The notes: a model not told the origin generated them from the sequence alone. Counted from the first letter of the stretch, positions 47,667-56,797 are shown. The stretch: 64,000 bases of DNA from Archangium gephyra (GCF_001027285.1 NZ_CP011509.1:8022501-8086500); one strand, 5' to 3'. Made by a program: numbers and translations.

Positions 47667-48911
47667 TTACTGCTGGTTCAGCTGGACCTCGAGCGACTCC
47701 ATCTTGCGGATGACCGGGTGGGGCCCGAACGAGGGCTCCTTCACCAGCCGCAGGGCCGGGAAGCGCTTGAGGAGCGTCTCCACGGCGATCTGCACCTCGA
47801 GCCGCGCCAGGCTCGCGCCCAGGCAGAAGTGCATGCCGTGGCCGAAGGCGATGCTCGCGTTGGTGTTGCGGCGCACGTCGAAGACATCCGCCTTCGGGAA
47901 CACGCTCTCGTCACGCAGCGCGCTGTTGAGCAGGACGAGCACCATCTGGCCCTTCTTGATGGTCACCCCGCCCAGCTCCACGTCCTCGAGCGCGTAGCGG
48001 GCGATGCCCAGCTTGCCGAAGTTGTCGAAGCGCAGCACCTCCTCGATGACGCCCTTGAGCAGCTCGGGCTCGGCCTTGACCTGCGTGAGCAGCTCGGGCC
48101 GCTTGAGCACGTTGTAGACCGTGAAGCCGATGAGGTGCACCGTGGTCTCGAAGCCGCCCACGATGAGCGCGGCCACCAGCGACAACAGCTCCGAGGTGTT
48201 GAGCCGATCCCCCTGCTCCTCCGTCTGGATGAGCGTGGTGAGGATGTCATCCGGCAGCGGGTTGCGGCGCCGGTCCTCGATCGTCTCGCGCACCAGGGCG
48301 ATGCCCTCCCGGACATCCTCACGCAGCGAGGGCACCTCCTCCGGGCGGAGCAGTCCGGGCAGGAAGCTCTTGATCGCCGCCTCCGTGAAGCGCTGGAACA
48401 GCGTCTCGCGGCCCTTGGGGATCTTCAGCATGGAGCCGATCACCCGGGGCGGAATGCGGTCCGAGATGTCCTTGACCACGTTGAGGGTGTCCCGGCCCGC
48501 CAGGTCGTTCAGGATGTCATCGACGACGGCCTGGAGCTCCGGCCGCAACCGCTCGATGGCGCGCGGCGTGAGCGCCGGGCTGACGAGCTTGCGCACCCGG
48601 GCGTGATCCGAACCCGACAGCGCGAAGAGCCCTCCCTTGTTGAGCTCCGCCAGCTCGGGGATCAGCGCCGCGGACCCCGCGATCGCGGCGAACTCCCACT
48701 CATCCCGGTTGGGCGAGAAGCGCCTGGCGTCCCGGAGCACGGCGGTGGCGTCCTCATACCGCGAGAGCAGCCAGGCCCGGCCTTCCGGCCAGTAGTACAG
48801 GGGCGCCTTCGTGCGCAGCTCCGCGAGCGCGGGATAGGGATCGAGGACGTAGCCGGGTGCGTCCGGCGCGAAAGACACGGAGGGGGACTGGGAAGGCGTC
48901 TGAAGCGACAT
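47667..48911 (-). CDS. Cytochrome P450 (bacterial class I type)
   Basis: A 414-residue soluble P450 with all standard elements: I-helix LIVGGFETTVHL (acid-Thr pair), ExxR in EEVLRF, and heme loop IAFGHGMHFCLGASLAR with the Cys ligand. It is encoded 45 bp after a ferredoxin gene, its likely electron donor. The substrate is unknown. Confidence 0.92.
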   Translation of the reverse strand: MSLQTPSQSPSVSFAPDAPGYVLDPYPALAELRTKAPLYYWPEGRAWLLSRYEDATAVLRDARRFSPNRDEWEFAAIAGSAALIPELAELNKGGLFALSGSDHARVRKLVSPALTPRAIERLRPELQAVVDDILNDLAGRDTLNVVKDISDRIPPRVIGSMLKIPKGRETLFQRFTEAAIKSFLPGLLRPEEVPSLREDVREGIALVRETIEDRRRNPLPDDILTTLIQTEEQGDRLNTSELLSLVAALIVGGFETTVHLIGFTVYNVLKRPELLTQVKAEPELLKGVIEEVLRFDNFGKLGIARYALEDVELGGVTIKKGQMVLVLLNSALRDESVFPKADVFDVRRNTNASIAFGHGMHFCLGASLARLEVQIAVETLLKRFPALRLVKEPSFGPHPVIRKMESLEVQLNQQ

Positions 48912-48956
48912 GGGTCATCTCCTTCGGGGGGGACAACAGGGGGGAATGGCGGGGAC

Positions 48957-49151
48957 TCAGTCTTCCGAGAGCGACAGCGCCTGCTTCGGGCAGCCGAGGA
49001 TGGCCTTGTCCACCTTGGCGCGCAGCTCGGGGGGCACCGTCTCGGTGAGCACGTGCAGCTGATCCTTGTCATCCAGGTGGAAGGACTCGGGCGCCGCGCG
49101 AACGCAGACACCGTTGGCCTCGCAGCGATCCCAATCGACCACGATCTTCAT
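48957..49151 (-). CDS. Small [3Fe-4S]-type ferredoxin
   Basis: A 64-residue ferredoxin: DRCEANGVCVRAAPESFHL and ILGCPKQAL give the Cys-x5-Cys...Cys-Pro pattern of [3Fe-4S] ferredoxins that feed P450s. It precedes the P450 gene by 45 bp on the same strand, so it is very likely the redox partner. Start ATG 49151. Confidence 0.9.
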   Translation of the reverse strand: MKIVVDWDRCEANGVCVRAAPESFHLDDKDQLHVLTETVPPELRAKVDKAILGCPKQALSLSED

Positions 49152-49194
49152 GTGCAGCTCCTTGAGGTGGGACTTCGAAACGGAAGGGAGGGCG

Positions 49195-49377
49195 TCAGGC
49201 ATTGAGCAACCGGAGGACCCGCTCGATGGGTGGCCGCGCCGCGCCGGCATTCACGGCCTGGCTGATGGCGAGCCCCTGCGTCACCGCCATCCACGCACAC
49301 GCGAGTTCCTCCACGAGCTGTACCAAGCCCGGAAAAAGGACACAACCCAGGAATGGCCCCGGAGCGGCCGAGCCCAT
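49195..49377 (-). other. Short open frame, possible TetR C-terminal fragment
   Basis: The frame codes for 60 residues (LVEELACAWMAVTQGLAISQ, then PIERVLRLLNA) that look like the C-terminal helix of a TetR-type regulator. No N-terminal DNA-binding part is present. It lies between the ferredoxin and LysR genes. This is a weak assignment. Confidence 0.25.
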
Positions 49378-49389
49378 GCCGCCCCGGAC

Positions 49390-50304
49390 TCAGGGCACGT
49401 TCATCAGCGGCCAAAGTGCGCGGAAACGCTCGGAGAGGTGGTCGATCAACGCGGCCACGGGCGGCGGCAGACCGCGGCGGGAGGTGTAGACGAGATGGAC
49501 GGTGCCGTCCGGGGCGTGCCAGTCCGGAAGCACCTGGACGAGCTGGCCGGAGCGCAGCGCGGGCGCGCAGGTGTGCTCGGGCAGCAGCGCGACGCCCTGC
49601 CCCGCCAGCGCCGCCTCGCGCAAGGCACCGAAGTCTCCACACATCAGCCGCGGCTCGTGGCGCACGGAGACGGTCCGCTCCTCGGGTCCCACCAGCTCCC
49701 AGACATCCTGGCCCGCTTCCTCGCTCGCGCTCAGGGTGGGCCACGAGGCGAGCCGGGCCACGTCCCGGATGTCCCCGAGCCGCGGAACCAGCGTGGCGCC
49801 CGCGACGAGGATGCGGCGGCTGCGCCCGAGCGTGCGCAGGATGAGCGCCGCATCGGAGTCCAGCGTGGTGCGCACCCGGAGCGCGACGTCGATCCGCTCG
49901 TGGATGAGGTCCACCCGCCGGTTGGTGGCCACCACCTGCAGGTTCACCCGGGGATGGCGCGCCAGGAAGTCGGCCAGCAGCGGCGACACCACCTCCATCA
50001 TCCCCAGGGGACAGCTGAACCGGACGAGCCCATGGGGCTCGCCCTGGGTCGCGGCCACCGCCTCCTCGGCCCGCTGCACCTCCGTCATGACGTTGCGGCA
50101 ATGCTCGTAGAAGGCCTGCCCCACCTCGGTGACGCGGAAGCGGCGGGACGACCGCTCGATGAGCCTGACGCCGAGCCGCTCCTCGAGCTGGGCTACCCGG
50201 CGGCTGAGCTTCGACTTGGGCTGCCGCAGCGCCCGGGCGGCCTGCGAGAACCCTCCCCAGGCGACGACCTCGGTGAAGAAGAACAGATCATTGAGATCCT
50301 GCAT
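49390..50304 (-). CDS. LysR-family transcriptional regulator
   Basis: A 304-residue LysR-type protein: N-terminal winged helix ([21 protein letters not shown]... [20 protein letters not shown]) and a periplasmic-binding-like effector domain. It is divergent from the SDR gene, with 127 bp between them holding a pair of 17-base direct repeats. By the usual LysR logic it regulates itself and the SDR gene. Confidence 0.9.
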
Positions 50305-50431
50305 GACGGCCTCATCGTTCCATTATCTGAACGCAGAGTGCCACGAGACCGCTCTTTCGGCCTCATCGTTCCATGACTATCTCTTTCCGGGCGAGCGACG
50401 AACTCCTTCGCCTCGCGACAGGGAACGAGCC
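50305..50431. promoter_or_regulatory. LysR/SDR divergent promoter region with 17-bp direct repeats
   Basis: CGGCCTCATCGTTCCAT occurs identically at 50307-50323 and 50358-50374, 51 bp apart. The first copy directly abuts the LysR start codon. Each copy is followed by a similar TATCT stretch. The spacing places them on the same face of the helix at about five turns, as expected for a regulator dimer or tetramer. Confidence 0.6.
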
Positions 50432-51184
50432 ATGAGCAACAGACTTCAGGACAAGGTGGCGGTCATCACGGGTGGGACCTCGGGGATCGGGCTGGCGACG
50501 GCGAAGCGGTTCGCGGCCGAGGGGGCCCATGTCTTCATCACGGGCCGCCGCCAGGCGGAGCTGGACGCGGCGCTGAAGGAGCTGGGCCCTCGCGTCACGG
50601 GGGTGCGTGGCGATGTGTCCCAGCCCGCCGACCTCGATCGCCTCTACGAGCGGGTGCGGCGCGAGCACGACCACATCGACATCCTCTTCGCCAATGCCGG
50701 GGGCGGGGAGTTCGCGGCCCTGGGCTCCCTCTCCGAGGCGCACATCGACAAGACCTTCGACATCAACGTCAAGGGCACCGTGTTCACGGTGCAGAAGGCC
50801 CTGCCGCTGCTGCGCGACGGCGCGTCGATCATCCTCACGGGCTCGACGGCGGCCATCGTGGGCAGCCCGGCGTTCAGCATCTACGGCGCGACCAAGGCGG
50901 CCCTGCGCAGCTTCGCCCGCAACTGGATGCTCGATCTCAAGGACCGGCACATCCGCATCAACACGCTGAGCCCTGGCCCCATCCGGACGCCCGGCCTGCA
51001 TGGCCTGGGCAAGACGGAGGAGGAATCGCGGGCGATCCTCGACAGCCTGGCGGCCAGTGTCCCCATGGGCCGCCTGGGTGAACCGGACGAGGTGGCCAAG
51101 GCCGCGGTGTTCCTCGCCTCGGAGGACAGCAGCTTCGTCAACGGCTCCGAGCTCTTCGTCGATGGCGGCATGGCACAGATCTGA
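50432..51184 (+). CDS. Short-chain dehydrogenase/reductase
   Basis: A 250-residue SDR: NAD(P) motif [13 protein letters not shown], and catalytic YGATK. R40-R41 after the second strand (ITGRR) suggest NADP preference. Ends GGMAQI as usual. The substrate is unknown; control by the divergent LysR regulator is inferred. Confidence 0.92.
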
Positions 51185-51315
51185 GCGGTCCCCGCTGATG
51201 ACCCCAGACACCAGGGTGGTGACAGGGGTCACCGGGGCCCCGCGCCCTCGGGTGGAGCAACCGCCTGGAAACACGAGGCGCCAGGGCTGGCACGACGGAC
51301 GCAACAAAGCCCGTC

Positions 51316-53793
51316 ATGCCCATCGCGCCCCTGTCCAGGCAGCCCCTCCTCCACCGGCCGTCTCCCGTCCAGACCAGCCCCGTGGCCGCGGAGAAGCCGG
51401 CGCCGGCCGCTGCCGCCCAGAAGCCCGTGAAGGCCCTGGTGCGCAACGACCGCGACACCTTCGAGGCCACCGGGGCTCCGGGTGTGGCGAAGCTCAGGCA
51501 GGGGCTCGCCGCCGCCGGGAAGACGATCGCCGCCGAGGCACCTCGTCCCGCCGCGCCGCCTCCCCCACCGAAGACCGTGTCGGGCGAGGAGCGCGCCAAG
51601 AAGGAAGTGGACGTGAAGACGGTGGCGGACCGCCGCGTGGAGACCGAGGACGCGCAGAAGAAGCTGCGCGAGGAGACCGGCAAGCAGGCCGACGACATCC
51701 TGGCCATGGCCGACGGCAAGGCGGTGGTGCCGCCGGGCACCGAGGTGAAGAAGCTCTCCGACACCGAGGCGGAGCTGGTGCGCAAGGACGACCAGGGCGG
51801 AGTGCTCGAGCGCACCGTGGCCTCGAAGGGCCAGGACGGCGCGGTCACCCTGGACTCGGCCACGTACGCGAACGGCGTCAACAAGCGCGATCGGATGGAG
51901 GTGCTCGCTGGCGGGGGCACACGTGTTCGGCATGCCGAGTGGAAGGGCGAGACGAACGAGGCCAGCGGGCTCAAGTCCTTCGAGGACATCTCCAAGGCGA
52001 GGGACCGCAACCTCGTCTACTCGGACACGCACGTGCGCGTGGAGGACGATCGGCTCAAGGTGGACGAGTACTCGCAGGCCGATGGCGCCATCAAGGGCAG
52101 CCGCACCTCGTTCTACCAGCAGAAGGGAGACAAGGGCATCGACAACAAGCTGGACAAGCCCTTCGACTACAAGAAGCCGGTGGACCGGGCGGACACCTAC
52201 TCGTACGCGATTCCCGCGCCCAACGCGGATGGTACCCAGGGCAATCCCCAGTACCAGCGCACCCAGGACTTCTCCCAGGACAACGTGAAGGCCACCTCCA
52301 TCGTCAACCGCGAGCTGGATGGTCACACGAAATACGCGGGCGAGGGGCCCCACAACCGCGAGGACGCGGATCGCGTGCGGGACGAGTACTCCAAGCACGG
52401 TGGCGAGGACTACGACGCCAACGACGGCACCCAGAAGGGCAAGACGCCCAAGCAGTGGTTCGTCGAGGTGCAGAAGGGCCCGGATGCCAAGGACACGCAG
52501 ACCTTCATCGAGGGCTCGCCCAAGGCCACGGTCGTCACCCACCTGTCCCGCGAGGGCAGCCAGGTGCGCGAGAGCTCCTCGGGAAAGACCTTCAAGCCCG
52601 GCTCCGGGGATCTGGCGGACGTGAATGGCGAGACCACGCGCACCTACGCCCAGGACGGCTCCATCGAGAAGATGGACATGAAGCGCAAGGAGGCGGACGG
52701 CACGGAGCTGGAGCAGCACTACGCCAGCACGCGCACGCCCACGGACAAGGGCCTGGAGCTCAGCGAGACGCTGGAGACGAAGCGCACGAAGGACGAGAAG
52801 ACCTTCACCTCGAAGAAGGAGGACACGTCGCTCCTGTCGGGCCAGGGTGTGCGGCTGCTCGGCTCGCGCAGCACGGTGACGGACCCGGACGGGAGGCAGG
52901 CCGTCTCCGAGGTGGGCAAGGCGGGCGAGAAGCTGACGCTGTCGGGCCCCGGAGGCGGGGATCCCCGCATCGTCGCCCGCCCGGAGGACTTGAAGGACGA
53001 TGAGGCGGGCAAGGACCTGTTGCTCCAGGCGAGCGTGTCCACCACGGACACCGTCCAGGACTTCCTGCGCAATGGAGGCACCCGGGCGCTCGGGGCGCTC
53101 CACGGACTGAGCGCGGGCGCGGACGCACTGCCGCTGGGGAAGGCCTTGCAGGTGTTCGGGAAGGACGCCGTCCAGAGCTCCCTGCAGGGCGCCAAGGGAA
53201 GCGTGTCCTCGCTGGGCGGCGCGGCCGGTGTGGTCGCGGGCGGCATGCAACTGGCCCAGGGCATTCGCGAGCACAACGTGTCCACCCTCTTCCAGGGCCT
53301 GGCGGACGTGGGCGTGGGCGCGTTGGATCTCTACAACGGCACCCAGTCCTTCCGGAACGCCATCAAGGGCGTGTCGGACTTCGCGCTGGATGCCTCCGAG
53401 GATGCGGCCCGGCTCGCCGACGGTTGGCTGGGCAAGGCCACGGGGCTGGGCAAGCTGGCGGAGACGTCGGCGGGCACCAAGGTGCTCGGGGCCATCAAGG
53501 GCCTGGGAGGCGCGGCCAACGTGGCCGGTGCGCTGGTGGGCACGGGCCTGGGCATCAAGGACATCGTCGACGGAGCCCGCTCGGGGGATGGTGCGCAGAT
53601 CGCCAAGGGCGCCGTGAGCATCGCGGGAGGCCTTGGCGGTGCGGCCGCCGCCATCGCCGCGGGCAGCGCCTTCGGTGGGCCCATCGGGGCCGCGGTGGGC
53701 GCGGTGGTGGGCTTCTTCACCTGGGGCATCAACAAGCTCATCGATGTGATCACCGACAAGAAGCACAAGATCGCCGGCCTGCAGATCGGCTGA
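51316..53793 (+). CDS. Large hypothetical protein with hydrophobic glycine-rich C-terminus
   Basis: An 825-residue protein of no recognised family. Residues 1-100 are Pro/Ala-rich with a NDRDTFEATG motif seen as a short anchor-like element; residues 100-570 are highly charged and look like a repetitive beta/coil region (many DxT, GxE, K-rich turns); residues 610-815 contain several long Gly/Ala-rich helices such as SIAGGLGGAAAAIAAGSAF, ending in FFTWGINKLIDVITDKKHKI. No signal peptide is present. The hydrophobic tail resembles pore-forming or membrane-inserting C-termini, but this is only a resemblance. It is the gene just upstream of the candidate RiPP unit, 80 bp away. Confidence 0.7.
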   Translation: MPIAPLSRQPLLHRPSPVQTSPVAAEKPAPAAAAQKPVKALVRNDRDTFEATGAPGVAKLRQGLAAAGKTIAAEAPRPAAPPPPPKTVSGEERAKKEVDVKTVADRRVETEDAQKKLREETGKQADDILAMADGKAVVPPGTEVKKLSDTEAELVRKDDQGGVLERTVASKGQDGAVTLDSATYANGVNKRDRMEVLAGGGTRVRHAEWKGETNEASGLKSFEDISKARDRNLVYSDTHVRVEDDRLKVDEYSQADGAIKGSRTSFYQQKGDKGIDNKLDKPFDYKKPVDRADTYSYAIPAPNADGTQGNPQYQRTQDFSQDNVKATSIVNRELDGHTKYAGEGPHNREDADRVRDEYSKHGGEDYDANDGTQKGKTPKQWFVEVQKGPDAKDTQTFIEGSPKATVVTHLSREGSQVRESSSGKTFKPGSGDLADVNGETTRTYAQDGSIEKMDMKRKEADGTELEQHYASTRTPTDKGLELSETLETKRTKDEKTFTSKKEDTSLLSGQGVRLLGSRSTVTDPDGRQAVSEVGKAGEKLTLSGPGGGDPRIVARPEDLKDDEAGKDLLLQASVSTTDTVQDFLRNGGTRALGALHGLSAGADALPLGKALQVFGKDAVQSSLQGAKGSVSSLGGAAGVVAGGMQLAQGIREHNVSTLFQGLADVGVGALDLYNGTQSFRNAIKGVSDFALDASEDAARLADGWLGKATGLGKLAETSAGTKVLGAIKGLGGAANVAGALVGTGLGIKDIVDGARSGDGAQIAKGAVSIAGGLGGAAAAIAAGSAFGGPIGAAVGAVVGFFTWGINKLIDVITDKKHKIAGLQIG

Positions 53794-53873
53794 GACGAGC
53801 AACGGAGTCCTCTCGTACCTCCCGACTTCAAAGAGCATCGACACCCTGAGTGACCTATGACACGCTCGGAGTC

Positions 53874-54530
53874 ATGGTTCCTCCGCCGCCTCCCGCGTCA
53901 GGATTGCGTCTGCATGCGCTGTTTCCCACGCTCGTTGGAGAGGCCGATCACCCCGATGCCGAAGCGCTCAACGCGAATCTGGTGGACTACATCCGGTGGC
54001 GTGAACGGCAGGAGCCGGATCGCTCCCCGTTGACCACGGTGAATCATGGATGGCAGTCCGGGTTGGATCTGCTCGATGCGGATGTGCCCGCCATCCATGC
54101 GCTGAAGCGCTTCATCAACCACCATGTCGAGATGTTCCTGGCGGAGTGGGGCCGGCTGATGCACTCGGCCTCGGCACCGAGCAGCTTCCGCTATGACTAT
54201 CGCGGGTGGGCGGTCATCCTGCGCCAGGGGGGCTTCCAGCACGAGCACATCCACTCGCGCACGAACCTGGTGGGCGTCTATTACGCGCAGGTTCCCGCGG
54301 TCCCCCCGGGAGTGGTGGCTGGCGGGGCGCTGAGCCTGACGGATCCCCGAGGCGGACGGCTCGCCACCCGCGCGATGTGGGACGTGGATCGCATCAACCT
54401 GCAACCCGTTGCGGGCAGGCTGTTGCTCTTTCCCAGCTTCCTGGCGCACCGGGTGGAGCAGTTGCTGGTGCCGGGTGAACGCATCTCCATCAACTTCGAT
54501 GTGCAGGTAGACGCTGTCAGTCCCCGTTGA
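53874..54530 (+). CDS. 2OG-Fe(II) oxygenase-like protein
   Basis: A 218-residue protein. QHEHIHSRTNLVGVYYAQVP (122-141) contains the H-x-H iron-binding pair (H125, H127) before the GVYY strand, and LLFPSFLAHRV has the distal His (H192), followed by GERISINF with the 2OG-binding Arg (R203). This layout matches the TIGR02466-type putative 2-oxoglutarate dioxygenases. Such enzymes hydroxylate or desaturate proteins, peptides or small molecules. It is followed by the repetitive protein gene after 29 bp, with the next ORF on the same strand, so it may modify that protein. Start ATG 53874 is preferred; GTG 53850 is an alternative. Confidence 0.75.
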   Translation: MVPPPPPASGLRLHALFPTLVGEADHPDAEALNANLVDYIRWRERQEPDRSPLTTVNHGWQSGLDLLDADVPAIHALKRFINHHVEMFLAEWGRLMHSASAPSSFRYDYRGWAVILRQGGFQHEHIHSRTNLVGVYYAQVPAVPPGVVAGGALSLTDPRGGRLATRAMWDVDRINLQPVAGRLLLFPSFLAHRVEQLLVPGERISINFDVQVDAVSPR

Positions 54531-54559
54531 GCAGGCCAAAGACATCCCTGGAGGCAACC

Positions 54560-55384
54560 ATGGCGCTGTTTCGCGACGAAGAAGGCAATTTCTACAACAT
54601 CCCCAATGAAGAGCTGCAGAAGTACAAGGTGGAGGGCGAAGTGCCGGAGACCGAGCGGCTGACGGGACAGGAAGCACGGCGCGCGGAGACGCCCAAGCAG
54701 GGTACCGCCTATTTCTGGGACTCGCTTGGCGCGCGGCCCGCTCCCGCCTACTTCTGGGACCCTGGCACACGGCCCTCCGCCGCCTACTTCTGGGACAAGG
54801 CTCCCGCTCCGCTTTCCACCAGTGGAGGCGCCCCCCGGCCGATGCCGGCCCACAACTATGAGGCTGGCGCCAACCTCGGAGCCGCCTACAACTACGCCTC
54901 TCCGGCTCAGGCGCCGAGCGCCGCCTACAACTACGCCTCTCCCCGGCCGATGCCGGCCCACAACTATGAGGCTGGTGCCAATCTCGGAGCCGCCTACAAC
55001 TACGCCTCTCCGGCCCAGGCTCCGAGCGCTGCCTACAACTACGCCTCTCCTGCGCCGAGCGCTGCGTACAACTACGCGGCTCCGGCCCAGGCTCCGAGCG
55101 CTGCGTACAACTACGCCTCTCCGGCTCCGAGCGCCGCGTACAACTACGCCTCTCCCGCTCCGAGCGCTGCGTACAACTACGCCTCTCCCGCTCCGAGCGC
55201 TGCGTACAACTACGCGGCTCCGGCCCAGGCTCCGAGCGCGGCCTACAACTACGCCTCTCCGGCTCCGAGCGCCGCGTACAACTACGCCTCTCCGGCGCGG
55301 ACGGCGAGCGCCGCCTACAACTGGACGACTCCCACCGGGCCGGCTCCCGCCTATTACTGGGGGGATGTGCCCACCCGGCGCTGA
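54560..55384 (+). CDS. Repetitive multi-core peptide precursor candidate (18 A-(Y/H)-x-(Y/W) motifs)
   Basis: A 274-residue protein with a leader-like start (MALFRDEEGNFYNIPNEELQ, then KYKVEGEVPE) and no signal peptide. After residue 48 come three AYFWD units, then alternating AHNYE (2), AYNYA (11), AYNWT and AYYWG units, 18 in all, each separated by 6-10 residues rich in Ala, Pro and Ser (for example SPAPSA, SPAQAPSA, GANLGA). Every core has two aromatic residues two positions apart. Neighbours are a 2OG-Fe(II) oxygenase-like gene upstream and a P450 downstream. I infer a RiPP-type precursor whose cores are crosslinked and hydroxylated; a structural role is the main alternative. ATG 54560 has GGAGG 5 bases upstream. 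Internal repetition is also visible in the DNA. Confidence 0.7.
   Translation: MALFRDEEGNFYNIPNEELQKYKVEGEVPETERLTGQEARRAETPKQGTAYFWDSLGARPAPAYFWDPGTRPSAAYFWDKAPAPLSTSGGAPRPMPAHNYEAGANLGAAYNYASPAQAPSAAYNYASPRPMPAHNYEAGANLGAAYNYASPAQAPSAAYNYASPAPSAAYNYAAPAQAPSAAYNYASPAPSAAYNYASPAPSAAYNYASPAPSAAYNYAAPAQAPSAAYNYASPAPSAAYNYASPARTASAAYNWTTPTGPAPAYYWGDVPTRR
54880..55325 (+). repeat. Coding tandem repeats inside the precursor gene
   Basis: About 450 bp of imperfect tandem repeats with units of 33 or 39 bp (core plus linker) that code for AYNYASPAPS and AYNYASPAQAPS. Third-position differences (gcctac/gcgtac, ggctcc/cgctcc) show that the units have diverged while the peptide stayed constant, so selection acts on the amino-acid repeat. 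Confidence 0.9.
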
Positions 55385-55404
55385 GAGCTGACACACTTCC
55401 ACCC

Positions 55405-55431
55405 GGGCGGATCGGCACTCCCGATCCGCCC
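55405..55431 (+). terminator. Hairpin between the precursor gene and the P450 gene
   Basis: GGGCGGATCGG and CCGATCCGCCC form a perfect 11-bp stem with a 5-base loop, 20 bp after the precursor stop and 24 bp before the P450 start. It lacks a U-tract. Partial termination here would give more transcript of the repetitive gene than of the enzyme gene, a common arrangement for precursor peptides. Confidence 0.6.
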
Positions 55432-55454
55432 TCCTGCCCCACTGATTCAAAGCC

Positions 55455-56702
55455 ATGGAACCCAACGCTCCCGAGGCCGCGCCCCACGATGTCAGGGATT
55501 GGAGGGACCATGCGGCTTTCTTCCTCAACCTGAGCCGTCTCTGTCCGGATGAGGTCGTCCCCTACATGGCGCAAGGGCGGCCGGCCTTCCTCATCAACCG
55601 TCCAGAGCACGTCACGCACGTGCTGAGCACGGCCCAGGCCAACTACCGCAATCCCTATCATCCCTATGCGGAGCTGGCCGGGCTCTATCAACCCGAGGGC
55701 TCCTTCCTGCTGCGGTTGGGGCACCGCGCCGAGCACCGCTCGGCCTATACGCACCAGCTCACGCGGATGGTGGAGTCCGCGCGTGCACGGTTTCGCGTCC
55801 TGGGCGAGTCATCGAGCCAGGGGCCCGTCGAGGTGGAGCGCGAGCTGAAGGAGCTGCTGCTGTGCGTCTTCGCCCAGGCCCTCTTCGGCGTGGACGTGGC
55901 CGCGGAGAGCGAGTCCTTCGTCCGGGCGGTAGGTCTCCTCGAGGAGGTCCAGGCCAACCACGTCTTCGCCCGGGGCGCGGACACCGGGCCGCTGCGCCTG
56001 CGCTACCAGCAGGCCGTGGAGGACCAGCAGCGGTTGGTGGAGCGTATCGTCCAGGGAAGCACCGGGATGCGCGAGGCCGTGGAGGAAGCACCCGAGCGGC
56101 ACTCGCTCGTGCACACGGCCATCATCCGCACCCTGCTCAACGGGTACAACGCGATGGCCACGGCGCTGGGTTGGACGCTCCACCTGTTGGGACAACACCC
56201 GGAAACCCAACGGCAGGTCCGGGAAGAGGCGCTGGGGCTCGAAGAGGAACTGCTCACGATCAGGGACCTGCCCCGGCTGCGCGTCACCCGCTGCGTGGTG
56301 CAGGAGTCGCTGCGGCTCTACCCACCGGCGTGGATGCTCGGGCGCCATGTGCGAGAGGAGGAGCGGCTCGGGGGCATCACCCTTCCCACAGGGGCCATCA
56401 TTTCCGTCTCGCCGTATACGATGCAGCGTCACCCCCGGGTGTGGGAGGAGCCCGATGCCTTCCGTCCGGAGCGCTTCCTCGGAGCGGAAAGCCGGCAACC
56501 GGGAGCGTACTTCCCCTTCGGTGGAGGAATGCGCTCGTGCCCGGCCGAGCATTCCGTGGTGGGCCCGCTGCAGCTCCTGGTGGCCACCCTGGTGAGAGAG
56601 CACCAGATCGAGCCGGTGCCAGGAGTCACGGTCCGGCCGCGCGGGCTCGTCTCGCTCCGTCCGTCCCCTACCCTCCGGTTGCGATTCCTGTCCCTGGCTT
56701 AG
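55455..56702 (+). CDS. Cytochrome P450 with atypical I-helix
   Basis: A 415-residue P450: ExxR in CVVQESLRLYPPAW, and heme loop YFPFGGGMRSCPAEH with the Cys ligand. The I-helix reads LLNGYNAMATAL: the usual (A/G)Gx(D/E)T acid-alcohol pair is replaced (E to N, T to A and M), so proton delivery must differ from a standard monooxygenase. The pattern fits P450s that make radical crosslinks rather than hydroxylate, but this is inference. It lies 70 bp after the repetitive precursor gene, beyond the hairpin. No ferredoxin is adjacent; the one at 48957 is 6.3 kb away and in another unit. Confidence 0.88.
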   Translation: MEPNAPEAAPHDVRDWRDHAAFFLNLSRLCPDEVVPYMAQGRPAFLINRPEHVTHVLSTAQANYRNPYHPYAELAGLYQPEGSFLLRLGHRAEHRSAYTHQLTRMVESARARFRVLGESSSQGPVEVERELKELLLCVFAQALFGVDVAAESESFVRAVGLLEEVQANHVFARGADTGPLRLRYQQAVEDQQRLVERIVQGSTGMREAVEEAPERHSLVHTAIIRTLLNGYNAMATALGWTLHLLGQHPETQRQVREEALGLEEELLTIRDLPRLRVTRCVVQESLRLYPPAWMLGRHVREEERLGGITLPTGAIISVSPYTMQRHPRVWEEPDAFRPERFLGAESRQPGAYFPFGGGMRSCPAEHSVVGPLQLLVATLVREHQIEPVPGVTVRPRGLVSLRPSPTLRLRFLSLA

Positions 56703-56797
56703 GTCATCTCGAACAGGGCTCCCGGACTGGGAGTGTGGGGCAGGACGATCACCTTCCTTCCGTTCCTTCGGAGTCCAGTCCTAGAATCTCCGGCGTG

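Follow-up and report, generated by a model that had tools for sequence, protein, structure and literature searches.

A leader-bearing array of aromatic triads encoded with a P450 and a 2OG oxygenase: a candidate multi-core RiPP system in Archangium gephyra and cyanobacteria

Archangium gephyra is a soil-dwelling predatory bacterium whose genome of 12,489,432 bp is represented by a single contig. In the 64,000-nt stretch of this genome that was analysed here (positions 8,022,501-8,086,500; called the window below, and used for all Archangium coordinates), a gene for a protein rich in short aromatic repeats is located between the genes of two oxidative enzymes. This arrangement raises the question of whether the repeats are substrates of the two enzymes and, if so, what kind of product could be formed. 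In this work, we describe a conserved three-gene system, present in two phyla, in which a precursor with a leader and an array of aromatic triads is encoded together with two oxidative enzymes. Judged from its sequences, this system is very likely a RiPP pathway.

The locus in Archangium gephyra

The first-pass annotation of this DNA proposed three same-strand genes, and these indeed lie on the plus strand where it had placed them, in the order 2OG oxygenase, repeat protein and P450. The gene of the 2OG-Fe(II) oxygenase, a member of the PF13759 / TIGR02466 family, occupies positions 53874..54530 (+); its ATG at 53874 is favored over an alternative GTG start at 53850 because the cyanobacterial orthologues have short N-termini. 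The precursor peptide gene (54560..55384, +) codes for 274 aa comprising a leader, with orthologues in four cyanobacteria, and 18 cores. It is preceded by GGAGG at 54550..54554 (+), read from the sequence 5 nt 5' of the ATG, in agreement with the good ribosome site that had been claimed for the middle gene. The third gene (55455..56702, +) encodes a cytochrome P450 of 415 aa (PF00067, 6.2e-42), representing a new subfamily.

The leader, MALFRDEEGNFYNIPNEELQKYKVEGEVPE..., is encoded at 54560..54694 (+), and the alignment of five leaders gives the family consensus FRDxxGNFYxI...L. The array, in which 18 triad cores of the form A[YH]x[YW] are separated by Ala/Pro/Ser linkers, extends from 54707 to 55363 (+). 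Both the length of 274 residues and the earlier tally of repeats were reproduced, with AYFWD occurring three times, AHNYE twice, AYNYA eleven times, and AYNWT and AYYWG once each. When the residues after position 45 of the repeat protein were shuffled 2000 times, A[YH]x[YW] sites occurred 1.5 times on average and at most 6 times, compared with the 18 observed. Pfam and NCBIfam family scans of the precursor gave no match. About 108 bp of the array are duplicated (54839-54946 / 54947-55054). The varied DNA wording of the conserved repeat, pointed out in the annotation, is evident in the 11 YNY units (pS = 0.345 vs pN = 0.018), and the array is under purifying selection.

The GC3 values of the three genes are 0.784, 0.785 and 0.851, whereas those of their neighbors are 0.927 and 0.888. 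In another genome of the same genus (G004, contig C142), both flanks are kept and the segment corresponding to window positions 49,634-56,780 is missing. This segment comprises the genes of a LysR-type regulator, an SDR and an 825-aa protein as well as the three putative RiPP genes, and a short LysR remnant is present in G004. The lower GC3, together with the failure to find the leader in other myxobacteria, fits a horizontal gain of the three genes, the alternative being loss in relatives. The 825-aa protein (51316-53793) belongs to no known family (best Pfam match DUF4225, E 0.059), has a Gly/Ala-rich hydrophobic C-terminus, and possesses homologues 33-46% identical in two genomes of the genus. 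It was considered as a further operon member and dropped, as its homologues in G001 and G004 occur without P450 or 2OG neighbors.

Distribution of the leader and its neighboring genes

The genome searches covered 1242 genomes. Conservation in other Archangiaceae, proposed in the annotation as a check, did not hold, as the leader was not found in the five other genomes of the genus. Beyond the window, searches of 98 relatives, of the full set of 195 Myxococcota genomes and of plasmids did not return it; a second match (E 0.004) was dismissed on account of an internal stop. No close orthologue of the 2OG enzyme or the P450 was detected in 58 relatives, and no relative of the leader was returned by an exact 8-mer, leader-only scan of the genome contig collection or by a leader scan of viral contigs. 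A designed alignment of 2OG enzyme, leader and P450, in which made-up variant rows serve only for degenerate search patterns, was scanned against 84,980 species genomes and revealed one locus, in Microseira wollei NIES-4236. A P450 profile run on 386 cyanobacterial genomes added genome G473, and a leader profile run on 391 genomes of the order of Microseira identified four true members, adding G840 and G703. Four sequence sets are complete, while the fifth (G703) is split over two contigs.

The Microseira precursor has 162 aa, the leader MMIFRDREGNFYNIPEEELSKFRVEGELPE and 11 triads. It is followed by the P450 gene, an opposite-strand 2OG gene (product 54% identical), a MATE transporter gene and an O-methyltransferase gene, and the same layout occurs in G473 and G840; other flanking genes of these three cyanobacterial clusters differ. 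Archangium and G703 have the order 2OG-precursor-P450. In G703, the 2OG gene stands ahead of a precursor gene that runs off its contig, with the break inside the repeat array, and a profile search located the P450 gene near the start of contig C74, after the tail of a YNYAPP array.

The annotation asked whether leader homologues co-occur with the oxygenase and the P450, and held that homologues consistently devoid of either neighbor would speak against a pathway. The opposite was found: each of the five leader genes, in two phyla, is accompanied by an orthologous 2OG gene and an orthologous P450 gene, and no strong match to the P450 subfamily without a leader turned up in the 386 cyanobacterial genomes. 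A conserved leader, a more variable core region and modifying enzymes co-encoded beside every leader gene give the family the composition of a RiPP system.

The precursors range from 136 to 274 aa, their leaders being about 36-45 residues long, and each contains 8-18 cores (18 triads in the window, 11 in Microseira, 8 in G473, 12 in G840 and at least 8 in G703). Twelve positions of the leader are invariant across the five genomes, and the array is more varied. Among the 57 complete triads, 49 are YNY; the remainder consist of YFW (three), HNY (two), YNW and YYW, all from the window, and a single YKH from Microseira. Position i is occupied only by Tyr or His and position i+2 only by Tyr, Trp or His, while Phe is confined to the middle position, where Asn is present in 52 of 57 triads and Phe, Tyr or Lys in the other five. 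Few aromatic residues occur outside the triads downstream of the leader. Twelve cores of the window, and almost every core of the relatives, have a Pro three residues past the triad, and no conserved cleavage site between cores is obvious. When G473 is compared with G840, dN/dS values are about 0.22 (P450), 0.24 (2OG enzyme) and 0.16 (MATE pump), and the leader region differs by 4 synonymous changes and 1 non-synonymous change.

Weak leader matches in G863, G692, G282, G515 and G730 (E 0.002-0.008) were disregarded, that in G692 being a leader-like stretch within a longer unrelated protein. Transposase-like ORFs are located directly upstream of the G840 precursor gene (locus L084, 8553-9423), and the Microseira cluster has TnpB-like ORFs on its flanks as well as within it (locus L062, 8277-9767 and 12175-13656), hinting at cluster mobility.

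The two enzymes and related systems

The window P450 matches PF00067 and has both the Cys heme ligand and the ExxR motif. Its I-helix carries NGYNAMAT (56139..56162, +) in place of the canonical AGxET acid-alcohol motif, and its heme-binding loop, FPFGGGMRSCPA, is encoded at 56511..56546 (+). All five family P450s contain TLLN[GS]YN[AG]MAT together with FGGGxRxCP; the N[GS]YN[AG]MAT stretch corresponds to AGHETT or close variants in 29 controls, and the acid position is Asn in 5/5 family members vs Glu in 29/29 controls. The pair AGx[ED][TS] is thus missing from NGYNAM in the window and from N[GS]YN[AG]M in all five. Such a pair is usual, though not required, for P450 membership, and some specialised P450s are known to have lost it, which is why the assignment to the superfamily stands. 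In the heme loop, the window P450 reads CPA vs CIG or CVG in the 29 controls. It is 46% identical to the Microseira P450, and the five family members form one clade with support 100/100 when 33 other P450s are included in the tree, the G703 enzyme lying on a long branch. The closest solved structures are 7wzl, 3dbg (which we take to be CYP170A1), CYP46A1, CYP3A, CYP97-type and CYP102 enzymes, and the best PDB matches include no peptide cross-linker. Predicted structures of the 2OG enzyme and the P450, each from an alignment of two sequences, are too poor for use, with mean pLDDT values of 39.7 and 33.7.

The P450s of two further cyanobacterial genomes, G225 and G571 (234 and 227 bits), were rejected as members, as their I-helix retains AG-H-E-T and the peptide cluster alongside is of another kind. 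These clusters (L071 1614-11522 and L072 8856-18184, gene names being from sequence reading) encode a nitrile-hydratase-leader-like peptide with the Cys-rich core end CCCCCPCCTCT, the P450 with normal AGHET, a methyltransferase, a subtilisin-like protease, two cyclodehydratase-partner-like large proteins and radical-SAM-like enzymes.

The 2OG enzyme matches PF13759 (1.1e-15) and scores 72.2 bits against TIGR02466, above the curated cut-off of 62.5, with iron and 2OG ligand residues in place. It is 45-54% identical to its counterparts in the four cyanobacterial clusters. Residues H133, H135, H200 and R211 (GTG-start numbering) are invariant among these enzymes, and the HxH...H motif aligns with HIH...H of PDB 3bvc/2rg4. 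A paralogue from the same genus (G001), 30% identical, has no adjoining P450 or repeat gene. TIGR02466 / PF13759 oxygenases also include cyanophage members about 30% identical; in the phage collection (H47-H54), a 2OG oxygenase with about 30% identity to the cyanobacterial family member is present in 110 cyanophage-type records.

No description of this leader/triad/2OG/P450 family was found in the open-access literature, most subscription papers being outside the scope of that search. Fungal dikaritins (ustiloxins) and plant burpitides have precursors with many repeated Tyr-bearing cores and oxidative side-chain cross-links. Their cyclases are of the UstY type or copper BURP enzymes and their hosts are different, and the analogy is one of layout only. 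Cittilins and atropopeptides (tryptorubin type) are made from leader-bearing RiPP precursors with P450 aromatic cross-links, one core per precursor and no 2OG enzyme. The comparison with these two groups, also drawn from PMC13417212, shows that they differ from the window system in core sequence, in having a single core and in the lack of a 2OG enzyme.

In aminopyruvatides (ApyA/ApyO/ApyH), the P450 ApyO cross-links Y-x-Y and tolerates Trp at either position; its substrates, which lose 2 Da, include WLY, YLW and YYY besides YLY (PMC13192836). In contrast to the multi-core array and 2OG enzyme found in all five genomes here, these systems combine a single C-terminal YLYD core (YxYD in general) with an MNIO enzyme, and none of the latter was recognised among the neighboring genes as read (part family-scanned). 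Membership of the ApyO family was also rejected: the NF050147 match of 113.7 bits (cut-off 525) is no link, because ordinary control P450s from other myxobacteria score higher (174-194).

In biarylitides (MRYxH-type, P450Blt/BytO), a P450 likewise joins aromatic residues at i and i+2, linking His, Tyr and Trp (PMC13417212), and the residue pattern found here would fit such chemistry. An Asp/Asn beta-hydroxylase gene, savH, is part of one biarylitide cluster, although no additional modification was observed (PMC13417212). The I-helix residues A231, H234 and E238 control the specificity of P450Blt, and the substitutions H234L and E238N derive from a natural P450, with Asn at the acid position, for which a preference for His-X-Tyr has been proposed (PMC10929621). 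Activity rose when E238N was combined with H234L, and the H234L-E238N enzyme is better at Tyr-x-Tyr cross-linking and binds His-x-Tyr (PMC10929621). By motif position, N232 of the window P450 may correspond to E238 and L228 to H234, the two P450s being distant. We do not identify the system as a biarylitide pathway: biarylitide precursors are MxYxH/W/Y pentapeptides from 18-bp genes with a two-residue leader, unlike the precursors of 136-274 aa described here.

What the enzymes may do to the triads

On balance, we consider it probable that the five loci represent a multi-core RiPP family, with the P450 cross-linking each triad between positions i and i+2 and the 2OG enzyme hydroxylating core or linker residues; taken by itself, the cross-linking is likely and the hydroxylation plausible. 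The conserved leader would recruit both enzymes to the long triad array, the P450 would join i and i+2 of each triad, and the TIGR02466-type oxygenase would act on core or linker, most likely on the middle Asn or on the Pro three residues past the triad. The array would then be cut by a putative protease, and in three cyanobacteria the product would probably be O-methylated and exported by the MATE pump. The pumps in these clusters suggest a small, exported cyanobacterial product; beside the three Archangium genes there is no protease or exporter gene. Restriction to Tyr, His and Trp at i and i+2 is what aromatic cross-linking between these positions predicts. The near-invariant middle Asn, left unexplained by such linkage, is a candidate target of the 2OG enzyme; it also counts against this reading, being far more conserved than the middle residue of ApyO or biarylitide substrates. 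Further points against it are the missing protease and exporter genes in Archangium, the want of an obvious cleavage site in the arrays, the PDB matches of the P450 and the long branch of the G703 enzyme.

The same array could be read differently. If the enzymes only hydroxylate, with the P450 converting Tyr to DOPA and the 2OG enzyme acting on Pro or Asn, the product may be an uncut adhesive resembling mussel foot proteins or a pigment polymer, as would suit long Ala/Pro/Ser-Tyr repeats of up to 18 units, tandem duplications within the array and the lack of evident cleavage sites. DOPA formation, however, fails to explain why His and Trp, and never Phe, replace Tyr only at i and i+2, while the charged and conserved N-terminus of the precursor resembles a recognition leader rather than a signal peptide and the MATE pumps of three clusters suggest a small product; we regard a purely hydroxylated polymer as rather unlikely. 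The near-invariant Asn would be accounted for if the P450 made a link other than aryl-aryl, e.g., from Tyr to the side chain of the middle Asn, and the missing acid-alcohol pair suggests unusual oxygen chemistry that may extend to nitration or another substitution of Tyr, as in RufO, which represents a cross-linking lineage turned to nitration (PMC13417212). Yet in the five cores with Phe, Tyr or Lys in the middle, i and i+2 are still Tyr, His or Trp, and the neighbors of the clusters as read (part family-scanned) include no recognisable nitric oxide synthase gene, so that a different P450 reaction of this kind appears unlikely.

A low-complexity, Ala/Pro-rich array alone would also allow a structural repeat protein that stays unmodified and merely happens to have two unrelated oxidases as neighbors. 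Both orthologous enzymes accompany 5/5 leader genes in two phyla, and the search of the 386 cyanobacterial genomes gave no strong match to the P450 subfamily that lacked a leader; chance proximity is therefore highly improbable.

If the cross-linking reading is true, P450-cross-linked RiPPs gain a multi-core family, TIGR02466-type 2OG oxygenases gain a concrete substrate hypothesis, and an enzyme becomes available that may cyclise many tripeptides per chain and that naturally tolerates Tyr, His and Trp. More tentatively, the system may constitute a separate RiPP class, passed between cyanobacteria and myxobacteria, in which a P450 devoid of the usual acid-alcohol pair and a 2OG enzyme act repeatedly along one chain, creating up to 18 three-residue aromatic rings as well as hydroxylations; the product might be a string of connected cyclophanes or else a hydroxylated cyclic tripeptide in many copies. 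With its atypical I-helix, the P450 would also allow a test of what the acid-alcohol pair does in peptide cross-linking. On its minus strand, at 47670-49250, the window carries another P450-like gene and a gene for a ferredoxin-like protein, both conserved in G004, and the ferredoxin-like product could be a candidate redox partner for the P450 of the triad system.
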